A stretch of 43,859 nt of DNA. Source: Alloprevotella sp. GTDB lineage: Bacteria; Bacteroidota; Bacteroidia; Bacteroidales; Bacteroidaceae. A program made the translations under genes and the position numbers. Shown here piece after piece: positions 37,613 through 43,692 of this stretch. Position 1 is the stretch's first letter. The number at the start of each line of letters is the position of its first letter. The stretch is from contig JAFUTC010000003.1 of the NCBI GenBank assembly GCA_017471505.1, positions 1-43,859 on the forward strand. The letters are read 5' to 3'. A model generated the notes under the pieces. The model made no database searches, had not been told where the DNA came from, and saw only the letters and a list, made by a program, of their open reading frames with translations.

Positions 37613-37722
37613 AAAGTGTTTTGTGACCGTTGGTGTTATTTGCACTTTTTATTGTCGCCCCAGCCTACGCCACACTGCTACGTGACGGGCTGACGAAGCA
37701 ACAAAGTGTCATGACCATTGGT
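37613..37722. repeat. imperfect direct repeat pair at the left border of the phage mosaic
   Basis: A segment beginning AAAGTGTTTTGTGACC (37613-37634) recurs as AAAGTGTCATGACC (37703-37722); both end in TTGGT and both are preceded by GAAGC. The two copies are 90 bp apart, between the TIGR04076 gene and the long repeated element. They could be a duplicated insertion target or a protein-binding site. No coding region is visible in the interval. Confidence 0.5.
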
Positions 37723-37736
37723 TGGATTTTGGGGCT

Positions 37737-37955
37737 GGCGGAGGGGTGTTTGGTTGTACGGGTGTTAGAATGGTGTTTAAGTGCGTTGTAGAGAGGCTCG
37801 GCCGTTGGTCGGGCTGTTTGTTTGGGTGTACAAAAAATGTCCGTTTCGTTTTTGGGTGTTTTTGGGTTGGATGTAGAGTTGGATGTAGATTTTGTGTACA
37901 AAAAAAGGGGGTTAAAAGGGGGGATAATGCCTTAAAAAAGGTTAAAAAGGGCGTT
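37737..37955 (+). repeat. about 220-bp non-coding repeated element, copy A
   Basis: This segment is closely similar to 40277-40503 in the same orientation. Long identical blocks include GTGTTAGAATGGTGTTTAAG and GTCGGGCTGTTTGTTTGG. Inside are short internal repeats: GTTGGATGTAGA twice in tandem and GTACAAAAAA twice. It lacks a transposase and terminal inverted repeats. Open minus-strand frames exist in both copies but differ by many amino acid changes and indels, which argues against coding. Confidence 0.8.
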
Positions 37956-38053
37956 TTTTGGGGGTTTTCAAACCCTTTATTGCAGGTGTTGTGATGTCTT
38001 GTGCGGTCTTTACTGATGGGGTTTTTGGGCGTTTTTTCGGCGAAAAAGCCTGC

Positions 38054-38085
38054 AAAAAAAAGCCCGTCGGCTGTATGCCGGCGGG
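38054..38085 (-). terminator. terminator for the first DUF6150-like gene
   Basis: On the minus strand CCCGCCGGC pairs with GCCGACGGG over a 5-nt loop and is followed by eight T residues (plus-strand A run 38054-38061). It lies about 90 bp past the stop at 38176. Confidence 0.75.
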
Positions 38086-38175
38086 GTGTGTTGTACGTTA
38101 TGAGTGTTGTTTATTGGATAAAGTTACTGATATGAGAGCAATTCACAACCAACCGACAACCAACTGACCACGATT

Positions 38176-38523
38176 TCACTCGTCAACTCCTGCGACTCCT
38201 GGGAAACGGGTGAAACGAATCTTGAAATCTGCAGCGCCTTCCACGAAACAGACTGAGAAGTTGCCTCCATGTTCAACGATGTGCCATTCGCCGGGCTTTG
38301 TACAGCATCCGGGGGTCAAACGAACCTTCAGGTCTTCGCCACAGCGCACCACGCGAACCTTAAAGTCTGCGTGGCCGTATTCCTTAATTGTGACGTTTCC
38401 CATGAGTTTCTTGCCCCTATAGATGCCTTCGGTGCTGATGGGGTTGCTGTTGCTGGAGCCGGAAAGCAGGCACACGCAAGCGAGGATTAAAGAGCCTTTT
38501 AAGAGGTATTTAAGTGCTTTCAT
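38176..38523 (-). CDS. small exported DUF6150-like protein, paralog 1
   Basis: A 115-residue protein. Residues 1-28 are a hydrophobic signal sequence (LKGSLILACVCLLSG) ending SNSNPIS. The mature part follows the pattern of my recalled DUF6150 family: short strands with alternating Ala-Asp turns (ADFKVRVVRC, DLKVRLTP), a central GEWHIVEHGG, then NFSVCFVEGAADFKIRFTRF and a terminal GVAG. It shares the start region and these motifs with proteins at 39860-40213 and 42979-43383, and the mature motifs with a truncated copy at 40502. No function is known; location in or across the envelope is inferred. A dedicated promoter lies 4 nt before the ATG and a terminator lies downstream, so it is a self-contained cargo unit inside phage remnants. 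Confidence 0.75.
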   Translation of the reverse strand: MKALKYLLKGSLILACVCLLSGSSNSNPISTEGIYRGKKLMGNVTIKEYGHADFKVRVVRCGEDLKVRLTPGCCTKPGEWHIVEHGGNFSVCFVEGAADFKIRFTRFPGVAGVDE

Positions 38524-38527
38524 GTCT

Positions 38528-38557
38528 CAAACGTACGTACAAATTTCAGAACGCAAA
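38528..38557 (-). promoter_or_regulatory. leaderless-type promoter of DUF6150-like paralog 1
   Basis: On the minus strand TTTG (plus 38554-38557), an 18-nt spacer and TACGTTTG (plus 38528-38535) are followed by only 4 nt (AGAC) before the ATG. Two other paralogs share this layout. Confidence 0.65.
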
Positions 38558-38582
38558 AATAAATTGCGTTTTTTTACCTTGT

Positions 38583-39275
38583 TCAGAAGGCCAGTTTCTG
38601 TGTGGCCGTGAACTTGGTAGCGGTTTTTGCGGCACTGAGCAGGAAGATGCCTGCGGAATTGGTGCGCAGCACTTTTGCGAGGCCGGTGCTGCCAATGGAG
38701 AGCAGTTGGTAGTGCCAGGTGTCGGTTCCTCCGTTCTGCGGGAAGTCGGCGAGCCACTCTCGCACGGTGTTCTCGGCGTTGTGGATGTCGTCGAGAATGG
38801 CCTGCTCTATGGTGACGTAGGAGGTGCAGTCGCTGATGTAGCGTCGGGTGGGGTCGGTGGGCTGCGGTTCGGGCTTGCTTTCGAGTGCCGCGATGCGCTT
38901 GTCGAGGTAGAGACTGTCGCGTAGTCGTGCGGCAGACTCTTCGGCGAGGTCGCTGGCGGAGGCGCAGTTGCCGAGCGTGACGGTGTGGGCGTCGATTTGC
39001 TCCTGGAGGCCGGCGTCGGCTGCCTGGCGTGTGGTGGTCTCGCTGGTGATGCTGTCGGTGAGCGTTGTCACGGCCTGGGTGGCCTGCGTGTCGAGGTCGG
39101 AGAGGTTCTGTTCGAGCGTGTCGGCCCGCGTCTGGAGTTCTGCCTGGTAGGATTCGAGGTTGTCGATGTCGGCTTCGGCTTGTGCGATACGCGCGATGAG
39201 GCTGGTGAGGTCTCCTCCTTGCGAGGGGTCGAGGGCGTCGATAGCCTCTCTCAGTGCCTCAATTTGGGTGAGCAT
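38583..39275 (-). CDS. phage structural protein, coiled-coil (tail-fibre or stalk like)
   Basis: A 230-residue protein with no signal peptide. Residues 1-150 are heptad-rich helices (ALREAIDALDPSQGG, IAQAEADIDNLESYQAEL, ALESKPEPQPTDPTRR marking the end). The C-terminal 50 residues are a beta-type segment (WHYQLLSIGSTGLAKVL, AGIFLLSAAKTATKF). Such coiled-coil plus small globular tip proteins are common as trimeric phage fibres or stalks. The start overlaps the end of the gp36-like gene by 17 nt, and the upstream region of this frame is open, so it may be a truncated or fused product. It belongs to a minus-strand phage cluster that ends at the DUF6150-like paralog 1 promoter. Confidence 0.6.
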   Translation of the reverse strand: MLTQIEALREAIDALDPSQGGDLTSLIARIAQAEADIDNLESYQAELQTRADTLEQNLSDLDTQATQAVTTLTDSITSETTTRQAADAGLQEQIDAHTVTLGNCASASDLAEESAARLRDSLYLDKRIAALESKPEPQPTDPTRRYISDCTSYVTIEQAILDDIHNAENTVREWLADFPQNGGTDTWHYQLLSIGSTGLAKVLRTNSAGIFLLSAAKTATKFTATQKLAF

Positions 39276-39576
39276 GTCGTCCTGCCTCGTGGCGGGTCGC
39301 CATGTCCAGGCTGCAGGCTGCTCGTCGCCCCATCTTCTGCGGCATTCGGTGAATCATGAGGTAGAGCGTGATGTTGACGGCGACTTGTACGAGCAGGGCG
39401 TTTCGGTCGTTGCCTGTCCGCTCGAACTCTGCGTTGATGTCGTAGCGGTGTCGCGTGTAGGAGGCGATTGTCTCGAGGGCGCTTGCCTCGGCCTGTGCTC
39501 GGTATTCGTCGGCCTCGAGTTGCTTGAACTCGAACTCGGTGCACACGGCTTGGTAGTCGGACTTTTCGATATACAT
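39259..39576 (-). CDS. phage gp36-like protein (DUF1320 type), C-terminus probably altered
   Basis: A 105-residue protein. The middle section (IASYTRHRYDINAEFERTG, RNALLVQVAVNITLYLMIHR) matches the Mu gp36-like family, a head or neck-region protein with RYD and a helical LYLxxHR-like end. The expected last 20-30 residues of the family are missing; instead the frame reads RRAACSLDMATRHEAGRH and stops. A frame change or deletion near 39330 would explain this. It starts 4 bp after the upstream 72-residue gene and overlaps the next gene. Confidence 0.55.
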   Translation of the reverse strand: MYIEKSDYQAVCTEFEFKQLEADEYRAQAEASALETIASYTRHRYDINAEFERTGNDRNALLVQVAVNITLYLMIHRMPQKMGRRAACSLDMATRHEAGRHAHPN

Positions 39577-39580
39577 AGGG

Positions 39581-39799
39581 TTATAGTTTGTTGGTCTTTT
39601 CGTCGATGATTATCTGCAGTATCTTCATGCAGAGCGGCGTGAGGTTCTCGTGCTGCATGTGTACCCAGGCGTAGCGGTAGTGGGCTTCCGGTGTGATGGT
39701 GAGCGCGACTTGGCTGTGTGCTTCGCGGCAGATGCGCCGAATGCGTCGTGCCGTGTCCATGGTTACGCGGTAGTGCAGGTCGATGGGAAGGCAGGTCAT
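39581..39799 (-). CDS. small phage-associated protein of unknown function
   Basis: A 72-residue basic protein starting MTCLPIDLHYRVTMDTARR. The ORF continues upstream to 39877, but that part overlaps the divergent DUF6150-like gene and is unlike an N-terminus. It contains RIRRICREAHSQVAL and a helical tail (CMKILQIIIDEKTN). It is the first gene of the minus-strand phage cluster, with the gp36-like gene 4 bp behind it. I do not recognise the family. Confidence 0.5.
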   Translation of the reverse strand: MTCLPIDLHYRVTMDTARRIRRICREAHSQVALTITPEAHYRYAWVHMQHENLTPLCMKILQIIIDEKTNKL

Positions 39800-39824
39800 T
39801 ATATATATATTTTCGGGTTGGTTG

Positions 39825-39855
39825 TTTGGTTTACTAACTGATTTGGCTATGTTTG
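39825..39855 (+). promoter_or_regulatory. leaderless-type promoter of DUF6150-like paralog 2
   Basis: TTTG (39825-39828), a 19-nt spacer and TATGTTTG (39848-39855) are followed by 4 nt (AAGC) and the ATG at 39860. Confidence 0.65.
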
Positions 39856-39859
39856 AAGC

Positions 39860-40213
39860 ATGAAATCGGTTAAACACCTCTTAAAGGTCTCTTTTATTCT
39901 TGTTTGCGTGGTGCTGCTGTGCGGTTCCCACCGTAGCAACCCCATCCGTCCTGACGGCACCTATAAGGGGCAGAAACTTATGGGCAGAGTCCATATCAGT
40001 GGTGGCGGTGCGACCTTTCGCGTATATGTTGCCTCTAAGCGCGACGCCGACCTGCATGTGAAGTTTTTGCCCAGTCGTACGGCGCGGCGTGTGGGTGAAT
40101 GGGAGATTGTGCCGTATGGTCGCCGCGATTTTAGCGTTGAGTTTGTCAACTCGCGTGCACGTGCCGATTTTACTATTTATATAGTTGACGATAACCCAGG
40201 CGTCAATCAGTAA
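39860..40213 (+). CDS. small exported DUF6150-like protein, paralog 2
   Basis: A 117-residue protein with an N-terminal hydrophobic signal (HLLKVSFILVCVVLLCG) and a mature domain like paralog 1: GTYKGQKLMGRVHIS, DADLHVKFLP, GEWEIVPYGR, DFSVEFVNSRARADFTIYIV. The first 50 nt are nearly identical in style to paralogs 1 and 4, including GGTTAAACACCTCTTAAAGG. Its stop overlaps, tail to tail, the stop region of a phage gene fragment on the minus strand. It lies between two phage remnants and carries its own promoter. No function is known. Confidence 0.75.
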   Translation: MKSVKHLLKVSFILVCVVLLCGSHRSNPIRPDGTYKGQKLMGRVHISGGGATFRVYVASKRDADLHVKFLPSRTARRVGEWEIVPYGRRDFSVEFVNSRARADFTIYIVDDNPGVNQ

Positions 40214-40290
40214 GTCACACTAATCAAATTGTATCGCTGGTCTTCCTTTGCCTTCAGTGTGACGGTCTGATAGTTGGCGGCGGTGTTCTG
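40207..40290 (-). pseudogene. C-terminal scrap of a phage protein
   Basis: The minus strand reads NQNTAANYQTVTLKAKED, then QRYNLISVTY, and stops at 40207, the appearance of a natural protein end. The frame is closed by a TAA just upstream, where repeat element B begins, so the rest of the gene has been lost. The identity is not known; the setting suggests a phage structural gene. Confidence 0.45.
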
Positions 40291-40503
40291 GTTGCACGGG
40301 TGTTAGAATGGTGTTTAAGTGCGTTGTAGAGAGGCTCGACCGTTGGTCGGGCTGTTTGTTTGGGTGTACAAAAAATGTCCGTCTCGTTTTTTGGTAGTTT
40401 TGGGTTGGATGGACGGTTGGATGTACGCTTTGGGTACAAAAAAATGGGGTCAAAATGGGGTCTAATGCCTTAAAAAGTGTTAAAAATGGCGGTTTTTAGG
40501 GGG
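40277..40503 (+). repeat. about 220-bp non-coding repeated element, copy B
   Basis: This is the second copy of the element at 37737-37955, in the same orientation, with scattered substitutions and small indels. It begins GGCGGCGGTGTTCTGGTTG and ends near TTTTTAGGGGG. The phage scrap on its left and the truncated DUF6150-like copy on its right are both cut at its edges. Confidence 0.8.
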
Positions 40504-40765
40504 AAGGGTCAAAGTAGTCAACCATGGTGGCACTGATGTGTTCCGCGTAAAGATTGTCCGCTATACCGACGAGGCTGATTTACTGGTCCATCCAGTCCGC
40601 TTTGCCTCAAGAAAACGCCTCGGCGAGTGGGAAATGTTCAGCGACAGCGACAATGCCGACTTTAAGGTCATGTTTGTCAACTATAAGTCCGACTTCAACA
40701 TCCGAATCGTGGGCACTTATTTCGTTTACCCCGATGGAAGCTGTGCGATGTTTGGTGGCAGATAG
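40502..40765 (+). pseudogene. 5'-truncated DUF6150-like gene, paralog 3
   Basis: The frame reads GRVKVVNHGGTDVFRVKIVR, EADLLVHPVRF, GEWEMFSDSDNADFKVMFVN and DFNIRIVG, aligning with paralogs 1, 2 and 4 from just after their LMG motif. The signal peptide and promoter are absent, and the reading frame begins at the edge of repeat element B. A GTG at 40538 could start a shorter cytoplasmic form, but there is no upstream promoter match. The C-terminus ends with a short tail (YPDGSCAMFGGR) not found in paralogs 1 and 2. Confidence 0.7.
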
Positions 40766-40777
40766 TTGGCATCACAT

Positions 40778-40826
40778 ACGCAAAAGGGCTGGCGGGCATT
40801 TAGGCGTCCCGTCAGCCCTTTTGCGT
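40778..40826. terminator. long bidirectional hairpin terminator
   Basis: Arms of 19 nt (40778-40796 and 40808-40826) starting ACGCAAAAGGGCTGG pair with one wobble around an 11-nt loop. It sits between convergent genes (truncated paralog 3 and the 74-residue membrane protein). Its length is unusual for a terminator. Confidence 0.7.
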
Positions 40827-40839
40827 TGAAACGAAGGCT

Positions 40840-41064
40840 TTAATGGCGGCTAAGCCAGTCGGTGAAGTCGCGGTCGAGGGCCTCGTTGAGTTTTCTGCGC
40901 AACTCGCGTTGCTCACGTTGCTCTCGCTCTTCGGGTGTTTCAGGCTTTCCAGGAAAAAAGATGGAGCGGATTATTACCCAGACAATCGACAGAATAAATC
41001 CTCCAAAAACCACCCATTCCAAGACGTCTACCCAAACTAAGGATTCTAAAAGAATAAGTTTCAT
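40840..41064 (-). CDS. small single-pass membrane protein
   Basis: A 74-residue protein starting MKLILLESLVWVDVLEW. The ORF is open to 41133, but the extra N-terminal residues overlap the divergent tape-measure gene and its promoter region. One membrane segment spans about 15-38 (VVFGGFILSIVWVIIRSIFF), followed by a charged helix with repeated EREQREQRELRR. It is possibly a phage moron, superinfection-exclusion or immunity-type protein; that is a guess from size and setting. It has its own full promoter and ends at the long hairpin. Confidence 0.55.
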   Translation of the reverse strand: MKLILLESLVWVDVLEWVVFGGFILSIVWVIIRSIFFPGKPETPEEREQREQRELRRKLNEALDRDFTDWLSRH

Positions 41065-41099
41065 GCTAAAAACCCGTTTGAAAATGATTCGACTGGAAG

Positions 41100-41130
41100 C
41101 AAACCTATAAAAATCGACCGATATGGCAAA
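41100..41130 (-). promoter_or_regulatory. promoter of the 74-residue membrane protein gene
   Basis: On the minus strand TTTG (plus 41127-41130), a 19-nt spacer and TAGGTTTG (plus 41100-41107) match both boxes. The leader to the ATG at 41064 would be about 28 nt. The -33 box overlaps the first codons of the divergent tape-measure gene. Confidence 0.6.
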
Positions 41131-42268
41131 CACATTTGACTATAAATTTAATCTGACCGGTAATTTCAGCGGTCAGATACAGCAGATGACGCAGGCGACG
41201 GACACCTTTGGCGTCGCCGTGCGGAAAACCACATCGGACATCTCCGGGATGACCAAGTCTGCCGGGGACATTGCGAATTTTGCCAGCCGTATCAGCGCGA
41301 ACCTGCAGCAGTTGTCGTCGTCGTACGTGGACCTGAATGCGAACATGAAGGACCTGTCGGCGATAGGCGGTGTGGTGGGCGACGACCTGAAGCAGATTGA
41401 GCAGTATGCGCGTGAGAGTGCAAAGACGTTCGGTTCGTCGGCGACGGACGCGGTGACGGGCTACAAGTTGCTGTTAAGCCAGTTGTCGCCGGAGTTGGCC
41501 AAGGCTCCTGAAGCGCTGAAGGCCATGGGCGAGAGCATTCAGATAACGAGCAAGTTGATGGGCGGCGACGGCGTGGCCGCTGCAGAGGTGCTGACGACGG
41601 CCATGAACCAGTACGGCGTGATTCTGGACGACCCCATTGCGGCGAGCGCCGAGATGGCCCGCATGATGAACGTGATGGCTGCGGCCGGCCAAGCCGGCTC
41701 GGCCGAGTTGCCCGCCATCAAGGTGGCGCTGGAGCAGTGCGGTATGGCCGCGAAGGCTGCAGGCGTGAGTTTCGAGGAGACGAACGCCGCCATCCAGGTG
41801 CTCGACAAGGCCGGCAAGAAAGGCAGTGAGGGCGGCGTAGCGTTGCGCAACGTGATGGATACGCTTGCCAAGGGGCGTTTTCTGCCGAAGGTGACTCAGG
41901 CGGAACTGAAGGCTTTCTATGCCGCCAAGGATTCTGCTGACAATATCGTCACTGGTATTGTGGCGCAGATTGTCCGTGTAGAGAACATGCACCTCACCGC
42001 CCATCTGGACGAGGGCAGCGTGGCTCAGGTTCAGGAGACAAACCGCAAGGCAATAGAACAAGAGAGTGATGTCCTTGCCCAACATATGAAAAAGCTGAAA
42101 GCCATGTTCAACGACCAGTCAGAAGATTTGGCAGATATTGTTCGCAGAGGCGAAGGTGTGTGGATGTCTCTACGTGTGTTCTACATCATCGCACCGATAG
42201 CCCTGTTCGCCATATTCGCTTGGGTGATATACATATCCTTCTGGGTGTACTTCCACTGGATAGCGTGA
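41123..42268 (+). CDS. chimeric protein: phage tape-measure N-terminus joined to an unrelated membrane tail
   Basis: A 381-residue product. Residues 1-256 match the start of a phage tail tape-measure protein: FDYKFNLTGNFSGQIQQM, then the PhageMin_Tail core (AKTFGSSATDAVTGYKLLLSQL, TTAMNQYGVILDDP, GGVALRNVMDTLAKGRFLPK). A real tape-measure protein would continue for hundreds of residues. Here, after GRFLPK, the sequence switches to VTQAELKAFYAAKDSADN, a charged helical region and a C-terminal membrane segment (YIIAPIALFAIFAWVIYISF). The frame is kept across the junction near 41890. The function of the chimera, if expressed, is unknown; a non-functional deletion product is the simplest view. 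Confidence 0.75.
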   Translation: MANTFDYKFNLTGNFSGQIQQMTQATDTFGVAVRKTTSDISGMTKSAGDIANFASRISANLQQLSSSYVDLNANMKDLSAIGGVVGDDLKQIEQYARESAKTFGSSATDAVTGYKLLLSQLSPELAKAPEALKAMGESIQITSKLMGGDGVAAAEVLTTAMNQYGVILDDPIAASAEMARMMNVMAAAGQAGSAELPAIKVALEQCGMAAKAAGVSFEETNAAIQVLDKAGKKGSEGGVALRNVMDTLAKGRFLPKVTQAELKAFYAAKDSADNIVTGIVAQIVRVENMHLTAHLDEGSVAQVQETNRKAIEQESDVLAQHMKKLKAMFNDQSEDLADIVRRGEGVWMSLRVFYIIAPIALFAIFAWVIYISFWVYFHWIA

Positions 42269-42284
42269 AAGAATCTAACGACAA

Positions 42285-42692
42285 TCACACCTTTATAATT
42301 GGTTCAAACCTCGGCTTGTCAACTATAACTCCCTTTGACGTAATATTCAGTGTGATAAAATCGAACCACGTTTCAAGGAAGCCGTTGAACTCTCTCATTG
42401 AAATCTCGTCAGGATAATCCTCTTGGGTATATTCCCATTTCAGATCAATAACATCGGTGAAATGGAAATCAAGAAAGACTTCAACCTTCTTTCGGTCATA
42501 CTCGATGCCTACACAGCAAGGAGGGTTGATTGTTACGTCAAGCCGCCTCTTCTCGCTATACCAATGAATCTCAGTCACTTTCGAGAAGTGAAACTGCCAT
42601 TTATCGTCTTCTTCAAGGAAAACTTCTATGTTTTCGATGCCTGTAACAAACTTTACGGCATCGTCAGTTATCATATTGGCTGATTTGCGCAT
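42285..42692 (-). CDS. small cytoplasmic protein, possibly immunity-like
   Basis: A 135-residue acidic protein (MRKSANMITDDAVKFVTG...) without signal or membrane segments. The middle part (WQFHFSKVTEIHWYSEKRRLDVTI, written here in parts: FHFSKVTEIHW and RRLDVTINPP) recalls small immunity proteins of the Imm50 kind, but the family's FHDAE motif is not present, so the link is weak. It starts 8 bp after the end of a minus-strand gene fragment, as in effector-immunity pairs. Lower GC than its phage surroundings suggests separate origin. The start could also be the second Met (MITDD). Confidence 0.5.
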   Translation of the reverse strand: MRKSANMITDDAVKFVTGIENIEVFLEEDDKWQFHFSKVTEIHWYSEKRRLDVTINPPCCVGIEYDRKKVEVFLDFHFTDVIDLKWEYTQEDYPDEISMREFNGFLETWFDFITLNITSKGVIVDKPRFEPIIKV

Positions 42693-42700
42693 GTCCTAAA

Positions 42701-42890
42701 TTACATGTTGATGTACTTCACTGGATTCTGGCTCTTTCCATAGAAAGCAGAAACATCTTTACCGATGTATTTGGTACGCTCATCTTCAACTCCAAGAAGC
42801 TCGCACCGTCCAATGTGCTTTGGGTCTTCAGTATATTTCCAATCCACAGGGTTATAGACTTCTTCCACAATGCCATTAACGATGGCGAGC
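42701..42890 (-). pseudogene. C-terminal fragment of an unidentified gene
   Basis: The minus strand reads NGIVEEVYNPVDWKYTED, PKHIGRCELLG and YGKSQNPVKYINM, then stops 8 bp before the 135-residue ORF. It looks like a genuine protein end but has no start codon. The frame stays open further upstream, where it turns hydrophobic and runs opposite to a phage gene fragment on the plus strand, so I place the junction near 42885. A toxin or nuclease tail is possible given the small ORF that follows; I cannot name it. Confidence 0.45.
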
Positions 42891-42982
42891 GGATGGGCGT
42901 TTACCAGATAAAGAAGAACGAAATCAGTTTCGGCAGCGACGGCTACCGGCAGAAGATAGAACTGGGACGAAGGGTAGACTAA
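42887..42982 (+). pseudogene. C-terminal fragment of a phage tail protein
   Basis: The plus strand reads ERMGVYQIKKNEISFGSD then GYRQKIELGRRVD and stops at 42982. This resembles the end of a tail or baseplate protein that would lie between tape measure and baseplate genes in a contractile phage. It fits the order tape-measure start (41123) then baseplate-like start (43420). Its stop overlaps, tail to tail, the stop of DUF6150-like paralog 4. Confidence 0.45.
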
Positions 42983-43383
42983 TAGTACGACACACCCATC
43001 ACACCGGCGTCGTGCCAGTTGTCCACCGCATACACATTGAAATCTTTGTCAATATGGAGGAACTCGTATTCGAAACTCCCCATGAGATAGACACAAAAGT
43101 CGGCATCTTCGCGATGGCGCACGATGGTCCAGTGGCCTGGCCTGCGACGCACGCCGGACTCTACGAAATAGACATAGAGGTCGGCATCGTCGGGAAGGGT
43201 GCAGCAATAGGCCTTGAAGGCAGAATCGTCGTATGGGTCTTGCGAGATATAGACATTGCCCTTCAAGCAAACACCCTTATAGCGCCCCTGGTCGTCGATG
43301 GGGTTGGCGCTGCGGGAACTGCAGAGGAGCACCGCGCAAACAAGAATTAAAGAGCCTTTTAAGAAGGGTTTAAGCGTTATCAT
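42979..43383 (-). CDS. small exported DUF6150-like protein, paralog 4
   Basis: A 134-residue protein, the longest intact family member here. The signal region (FLKGSLILVCAVLLCSS) and the motif NPIDDQGRYKGVCLKGNVYIS align with paralogs 1 and 2. The mature part carries DADLYVYFVES, GHWTIVRHRE, DADFCVYLMG and DFNVYAVD, and has an extra strand pair near residue 105. The DNA around the start (TTTGAAACATG, then CTTCTTAAAAGGCTCTTTAA) is almost the same as in paralog 1, so the copies diverged from a common cassette. It is tail to tail with a phage gene fragment and divergent from the baseplate-like gene. Confidence 0.75.
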   Translation of the reverse strand: MITLKPFLKGSLILVCAVLLCSSRSANPIDDQGRYKGVCLKGNVYISQDPYDDSAFKAYCCTLPDDADLYVYFVESGVRRRPGHWTIVRHREDADFCVYLMGSFEYEFLHIDKDFNVYAVDNWHDAGVMGVSYY

Positions 43384-43387
43384 GTTT

Positions 43388-43418
43388 CAAACCTACAAAT
43401 AAAAACCAGAAAACCAAA
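43388..43418 (-). promoter_or_regulatory. leaderless-type promoter of DUF6150-like paralog 4
   Basis: On the minus strand TTTG (plus 43415-43418), a 19-nt spacer and TAGGTTTG (plus 43388-43395) precede the ATG by 4 nt (AAAC). Confidence 0.65.
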
Positions 43419-43419
43419 T

Positions 43420-43692
43420 ATGAGCCGAATAAAAAATCTGATTCAGGAAATGAGCGGAGACCCTGCAGCACTTTGCTCGCAGATATGCCTCGTGGAACGG
43501 GTGGACAAGGAGAACCGTACGGCCGACCTTCAGCCGATAGACGGGAACGCTCCCCTGCTTGACTCGAACCTTCAGGCCGACCAGGGCGGGACGAAGGGTG
43601 TGGTGCTGATGCCTCGGGTGGGTTCGTATGTGGTGGCGGTGCGAAGAGTTCGGGATAAATTGGATTTTGGTTGGAGTAAAGTTGGGTTTTGA
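43420..43692 (+). CDS. phage baseplate-like protein, truncated
   Basis: A 90-residue ORF. The first 72 residues (MSRIKNLIQEMSGDPAALCS, VERVDKENRTADLQPIDGN, GGTKGVVLMPRVGSYVVAV) look like the N-terminal OB-type domain of a phage baseplate or spike-hub assembly protein. After VGSYVVAV the sequence turns to RRVRDKLDFGWSKVGF and stops, where family members continue. The gene is therefore cut near 43640, about 100 bp before the rRNA operon terminator. It marks the right end of the recognisable phage material. Confidence 0.6.
   Translation: MSRIKNLIQEMSGDPAALCSQICLVERVDKENRTADLQPIDGNAPLLDSNLQADQGGTKGVVLMPRVGSYVVAVRRVRDKLDFGWSKVGF

Follow-up and report, generated by a model that had tools for sequence, protein, structure and literature searches.

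Morons, or lysogenic-conversion genes, are inserted where related phages have two neighbouring genes, carry their own promoter and terminator, are expressed in the lysogen and change the host. Familiar examples are bor and lom of phage lambda, which are inserted in this way, have a promoter of their own and encode exported products. The subject here is a family of small genes on contig JAFUTC010000003.1 of Alloprevotella sp. (assembly GCA_017471505.1, 1.44 Mb, 77% complete), the whole of which, 43,859 bases, was analysed and is called the window. Three intact open reading frames (ORFs) of this family (P0001, P0002 and P0004) and a truncated one (P0003) lie on both strands within 5.2 kb (38176-43383), as the preliminary description of the sequence had noted. 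The family appears to resemble bor and lom in promoter, insertion site and export of the product, but it differs from them in belonging to another protein family, in lying antisense at the baseplate hub and in persisting here in several copies beyond its prophage. It is quite probable that the four genes are morons of an antisense baseplate-operon type carried by contractile-tailed prophages, and that they have outlived such a prophage in this genome.

A second point of comparison is Q9PR55 (UU089.1) of Ureaplasma, an 89-residue protein with a 7_1 knot (PDB 8IWA, 8IWB, 8JRM) and the most complex knotted protein known. Its knot was first seen by structure prediction and later solved; the accessible parts of the literature on it give no biological role and draw no link to phages. 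A homolog with a 5_1 knot has been described (PMC9278004). Literature searches returned no paper on DUF6150, the family to which the window proteins had been likened, none on ‘septknot’ and none combining ‘knotted protein’ with ‘prophage’. With relatives of the 7_1-knot protein appearing as phage cargo in a repeatedly used antisense place, the function of such an exported fold in a lysogen becomes a question that can be tested; if the boldest reading given below is true, the most complex protein knot would gain a biological role.

Phage-borne relatives (loci are numbered with an L) provide the anatomical evidence. A family gene adjoins the baseplate hub gene (phrog_4930) or a hub stub in 12 of 49 loci compared, and in all 12 it runs antisense. 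Because six gene-carrying hubs went into the hub profile (A4), this proportion does not represent a frequency in nature. The orientation is the same for 13 of 13 hub-neighbour family genes and in each of the ten loci with an intact hub. The 49 loci comprise the regions found by the hub profile search, which gave matches in 49 of 393 genomes, together with eight family loci and one viral contig (L119, from IMG/VR). In L021, L079, L101, L106, L107, L119, L150 and L151 the gene precedes the hub and follows a DUF6046 baseplate gene; in L117 and L152 it lies between the hub and the next, spike-like gene; in L083 family genes flank a broken hub on both sides; and in L105 the neighbour is a 74-residue hub stub that falls below the threshold of the 49-locus comparison. 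In several loci the family gene runs into the tail gene upstream, with a 3′ overlap of 4 to 19 nucleotides (nt). Among the 37 hub loci without a family gene, the seam before the hub is at most 25 nt long in 30 and the seam after it in 27. Two of these loci, L166 and L168, have a hub gene that overlaps the next gene by 4 nt, and at this same hub/spike seam of the window P0004 lies antisense, between the last 34 codons of a hub and a spike fragment, so that it sits between genes adjacent in related phages. The hub, spike and tape-measure fragments of the window each find their best match in L166, and the hub remnant (42875-42976) is the sole match of the hub profile search in the genome. By this anatomy, as read from sequence, the phage-borne members are well supported as morons. 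The hub/spike seam also holds other exported-looking ORFs in antisense, L155:5235-5570 and L160:5186-5545, which are related (49% identical to each other) and are not clearly family members (1.5 and 4.0 bits against the family profile). The seam may thus be a general site for exported cargo, and it is a spot to search for further lysogenic-conversion genes.

Each of the three intact window genes has a predicted Bacteroides-type promoter of its own. The pattern, TTTG-N18/19-TAnnTTTG, is the sigma-ABfr consensus (PMC7366714). It occurs eight times in the window against 0.44 expected, a number that none of 100 shuffles reaches, and three of the eight matches end exactly 4 nt ahead of the ATG of the three intact genes, so nearly leaderless transcripts are predicted. 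The block conserved among these genes starts at the promoter, the roughly 35 nt 5′ of each ATG being homologous too. Among 13 other phage members, both boxes are found in one, the -7 box only in seven and neither in five. A terminator-like hairpin with a T run follows P0001 and a strong hairpin follows P0003 (Table 1); the stretch downstream of P0002 has a weaker fold and no T run.

The claim that the four proteins align past the signal region holds. P0001 and P0002 are 49% identical over 107 columns (E 2e-25), P0002 and P0004 are 41% identical over 122 columns (E 5e-23), and a profile built without window proteins detects all four (P0001 1.8e-22, P0002 6.9e-18, P0003 1.8e-8, P0004 9.4e-8), which rules out chance signal-peptide similarity as the source of the likeness. 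The G-x-W motif described earlier is also present, as are V/I strands, and signal-peptide-like N-termini, read by eye, point to export. The label ‘DUF6150-like’ proves marginal: PF19647 gives 13.7 bits for P0002, 17.4 for P0003 and 23.6 for P0004, all below the gathering cut-off of 27, and P0001 is unmatched, so the family is not simply DUF6150. Phage members L117 and L152 match PF19647 below the cut-off as well, but there is no match for seven of nine other members scanned or for a 62-residue stretch of Q9PR55. In PHROG 6462, a family of unknown function, P0001 and P0002 match nearly the full profile (Table 1), and P0003 and P0004 match more weakly (5.8e-5 and 0.027). In HHalign comparisons, the members L117, L152 and the second gene of L083 reach the main family with probability 98.5 and the window trio with 95.4.

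Homology to Q9PR55 was found for the family profile, and the window proteins reach Q9PR55 only through the family; these profile comparisons favour grouping it with the solved knotted protein over grouping it with DUF6150. Prediction agrees with homology that the fold is the same: a shared fold, for which the preliminary description proposed a test, is supported by modelling, in which the mature domain of the window proteins adopts the Q9PR55 fold with about six short strand-loop units, and it may also be knotted. Unlike Q9PR55, the window proteins have diverged loops and carry a signal-like region.

The family gene has come and gone at the hub. On a hub tree of 47 rows its presence changes five times, all five forced by supported (starred) branches, so that the hubs compared have gained or lost it no fewer than five times, and wherever it was seen its orientation was the same. 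The hubs of L166 and L168 group with the hub of L079 (100/99), and on the family tree the three intact window genes form one clade (100/98) whose sister is the prophage-borne gene of L079 (97/97). This tree leaves out the double-domain proteins L087, L088 and L097 as well as L019, L022, L116, L151 and P0003; alignment A5 further leaves out the second gene of L083 and L094, L104, L105, L117, L152, L190 and L197, and contains P0001 twice (mature and whole). None of 57 further genomes of the genus gave a family match (threshold E 0.01; of all 58 genomes, 19 are at least 90% complete), which suggests that the window genes were imported. The earlier proposal that they were copied or exchanged between related prophages is compatible with the clade and its prophage-borne sister, which would fit copying inside the locus and repeated import equally well. 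According to the leading rival, a single decayed locus gave rise to the copies in the window through duplication and inversion, and only P0004 was a true phage moron. The single clade and the homology upstream of each ATG fit such an origin, as does a 214-bp repeat that marks rearrangement; the large divergence of the copies (39-50% amino acid identity, dS above 1) counts against it, and we regard it as a serious possibility that falls somewhat short of probable.

The distribution of the family weighs against a moron identity for the family at large. Tested phage genes lie near 8 of the first 46 family loci fetched and are missing near 38; a plain phage family it is not. The criterion for a phage gene was similarity to proteins of L021 or of the window (E 1e-4), which would overlook other types of phage. 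The 46 were chosen from longer hit lists, and L150, L151 and L152, hits of the same lists outside the 46, came with the hub loci and are phage-linked. The neighbours of these 38 loci (115 of 131 ORFs scanned, at most two per side and none over 900 residues, leaving out the near-duplicates L094 and L104 and nine long ORFs) belong to housekeeping families. Among the matches listed, 25 each out of 67 PHROGs and 167 Pfam families, no Pfam family occurs in more than three ORFs and no structural phage family appears. The characterization as moron cargo therefore stands for the phage-borne members, with their uniform antisense position in otherwise mostly tight seams and the promoters of the window, and fails for the family as a whole: its homologs lie mostly away from the phage genes tested, the outcome that the preliminary description had named as refuting, although this does not hold for the window's branch.

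The same loci feed a further explanation, that phages picked up chromosomal envelope proteins by chance, several times, and kept them antisense where they do least harm, with no benefit to the phage. The lack of a recurrent partner agrees with this, and so do the exported-looking ORFs of L155 and L160 in the same seam and the family tree, on which the phage/non-phage label changes six times, at least three of them forced (the bootstrap had not settled). Chance sits less well with the repeated use of the same two seams, with the survival of three genes intact while the prophage decayed, and with the low dN between the phage copies L106 and L119 (dN 0.080 versus a dS of 1.87, near saturation), a sign of purifying selection; constraint is weaker among the window paralogs (dN/dS 0.38-0.55). 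Pick-up by chance is judged unlikely. A phage structural or assembly factor, such as a hub or spike chaperone, would explain why the gene adjoins the hub or spike gene in the 12 phage loci, but an antisense gene with its own predicted promoter in the window and a signal-like N-terminus, absent from the 37 other hub loci, whose operons are similar apart from it, and present in many loci without phage genes, makes a scarcely credible chaperone. Equally implausible is a role as antisense RNA, with the transcript holding down the late tail genes in the lysogen and the protein secondary: the constant antisense orientation and the 3′ overlaps of several loci would suit it, but the low dN relative to dS in L106/L119 does not, nor does the location of most fetched family loci outside phages.

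If the window genes are morons, the gene would be transcribed from its own promoter in the lysogen while the late genes are silent, and its product would be exported to fold, either in the periplasm or at the envelope, as a highly stable domain that may be knotted and whose row of loops would bind an envelope structure. The crystal-structure paper on Q9PR55 reportedly describes protease resistance, which would suit an exported, long-lived protein. The likeliest benefit, and this is a guess, would concern the lysogen's envelope, first of all by excluding related phages, and the gene's linkage to the hub would then make sense; the product is perhaps an envelope protein of the lysogen that acts in superinfection exclusion. 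PADLOC defence models gave 0 families for P0001-P0004 up to E 0.1. A bolder version, which we think quite improbable, is that the antisense hub slot of contractile-tailed prophages of this bacterial order has been loaded several times with torus-knotted exported proteins, that the stable moron masks or occupies an envelope site needed by the matching hub and spike, that exclusion specificity travels with the hub and that the window relics are domesticated exclusion genes.

The loops of the family bear on such binding. Within one protein the six loops are 57% identical against 30% when shuffled among proteins, a value as high being reached in none of 500 shuffles (50 sequences). Codons of identical loop residues agree at 0.51 against a background of 0.46 (1608 pairs); this is barely above background, so the sameness seems to be kept mainly at the protein level and recent homogenisation of the DNA is rejected as its main cause. 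The pattern suggests a repeated binding face preserved by selection, and it is largely lost in the window proteins. The repeats can recombine all the same: of two family genes in one genome, L151:3386-3637 is shorter than L107:3466-3831 by about 38 residues from its centre, missing between two repeat units, as if by recombination between repeats. Outside the phage loci, L087, L088 and L097 each have two tandem family domains in one protein.

Table 1. Family genes, signals, repeats and phage remnants of the window
Feature	Position	Strand	Basis or remark
P0001, intact family member, 115 aa	38176..38523	-	export judged by eye from N-terminus; PHROG 6462 1.6e-17
P0002, intact family member, 117 aa	39860..40213	+	PHROG 6462 9.5e-13
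P0003, family member without 5′ end and promoter	about 40505..40765	+	homology, family profile
P0004, intact family member, 134 aa, antisense in hub/spike seam	42979..43383	-	DUF6150 5.1e-5, below cut-off
Predicted P0001 promoter (TTTG-N18-TAnnTTTG), 4 nt from its end to the ATG	38528..38557	-	pattern match, Bacteroides-type
Predicted P0002 promoter (TTTG-N19-TAnnTTTG), 4 nt from its end to the ATG	39825..39855	+	pattern match
Predicted P0004 promoter (TTTG-N19-TAnnTTTG), 4 nt from its end to the ATG	43388..43418	-	pattern match
Hairpin and T run downstream of P0001, terminator-like, limits approximate	38052..38092	-	sequence and fold
Stretch with strong hairpin after P0003	40765..40830	+	-38.3 kcal/mol for the stretch
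214-bp repeat, copy 1	37751..37964	+	89% identical to copy 2
214-bp direct repeat, copy 2	40289..40502	+	P0003 homology begins just past the edge of this copy
Baseplate hub C-terminal remnant (phrog_4930 type)	42875..42981	+	last 34 codons 42875-42976, E 4.8e-7, profile 284-317 of 318
Spike-like baseplate gene fragment, 90 aa, presumably gp45-like	43420..43692	+	E 1.9e-16 against the L166 ORF that follows the hub
N-terminal portion of tape-measure gene, about 280 aa, continuing into unrelated sequence	41123..42268	+	PF10145 4.6e-26
Head-tail-adaptor-like ORF	39259..39576	-	phrog_195 E 2e-10
Coiled-coil-like ORF directly upstream of P0001, putative phage origin	38583..39275	-	weak matches

The ORFs up to about 37.2 kb represent ordinary chromosome, as judged by eye, and the family genes occupy the sequence from there to the contig end (Table 1). 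That each family gene lies beside phage structural fragments, as the preliminary description had it, is firm for P0004, with its hub and spike, and looser for the other genes. The head-tail-adaptor-like ORF and the coiled-coil-like ORF have no relative among the loci searched, and the last 101 residues of the tape-measure ORF match none of the ORFs of those loci. No other genome among the 58 of the genus contains a match to the 214-bp repeat, and further searches did not find it elsewhere. Antisense to the tape-measure fragment runs a small membrane-protein-like ORF (40840-41064, minus strand) with TTTG-N19-TAnnTTTG upstream (41130-41100); it has no Pfam or PHROG match and is perhaps another moron.

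In L107:2278-5385 and L151:2200-5222 the baseplate block with the family gene runs opposite to the flanking tail genes, as if inverted, and in L101 and L106, which have tube-like and baseplate genes, no tape-measure gene occupies its usual position. Elsewhere in the window, a fragment at 42703-42886, beside a 135-residue ORF (42285-42692), is 76.6% identical to MT838449, a fecal record of 5.2 kb under the name Bacteriophage sp.; by eye, the ORFs of that record resemble those of a mobilizable element. At the contig end (43798-43859, minus strand) the sequence resembles a partial 5S rRNA gene by eye, Rfam giving nothing at its cut-off. About 3 kb upstream of the region, a low-GC gene at 31638-34850 matches the PADLOC model of a type IV restriction enzyme (E 4e-172).

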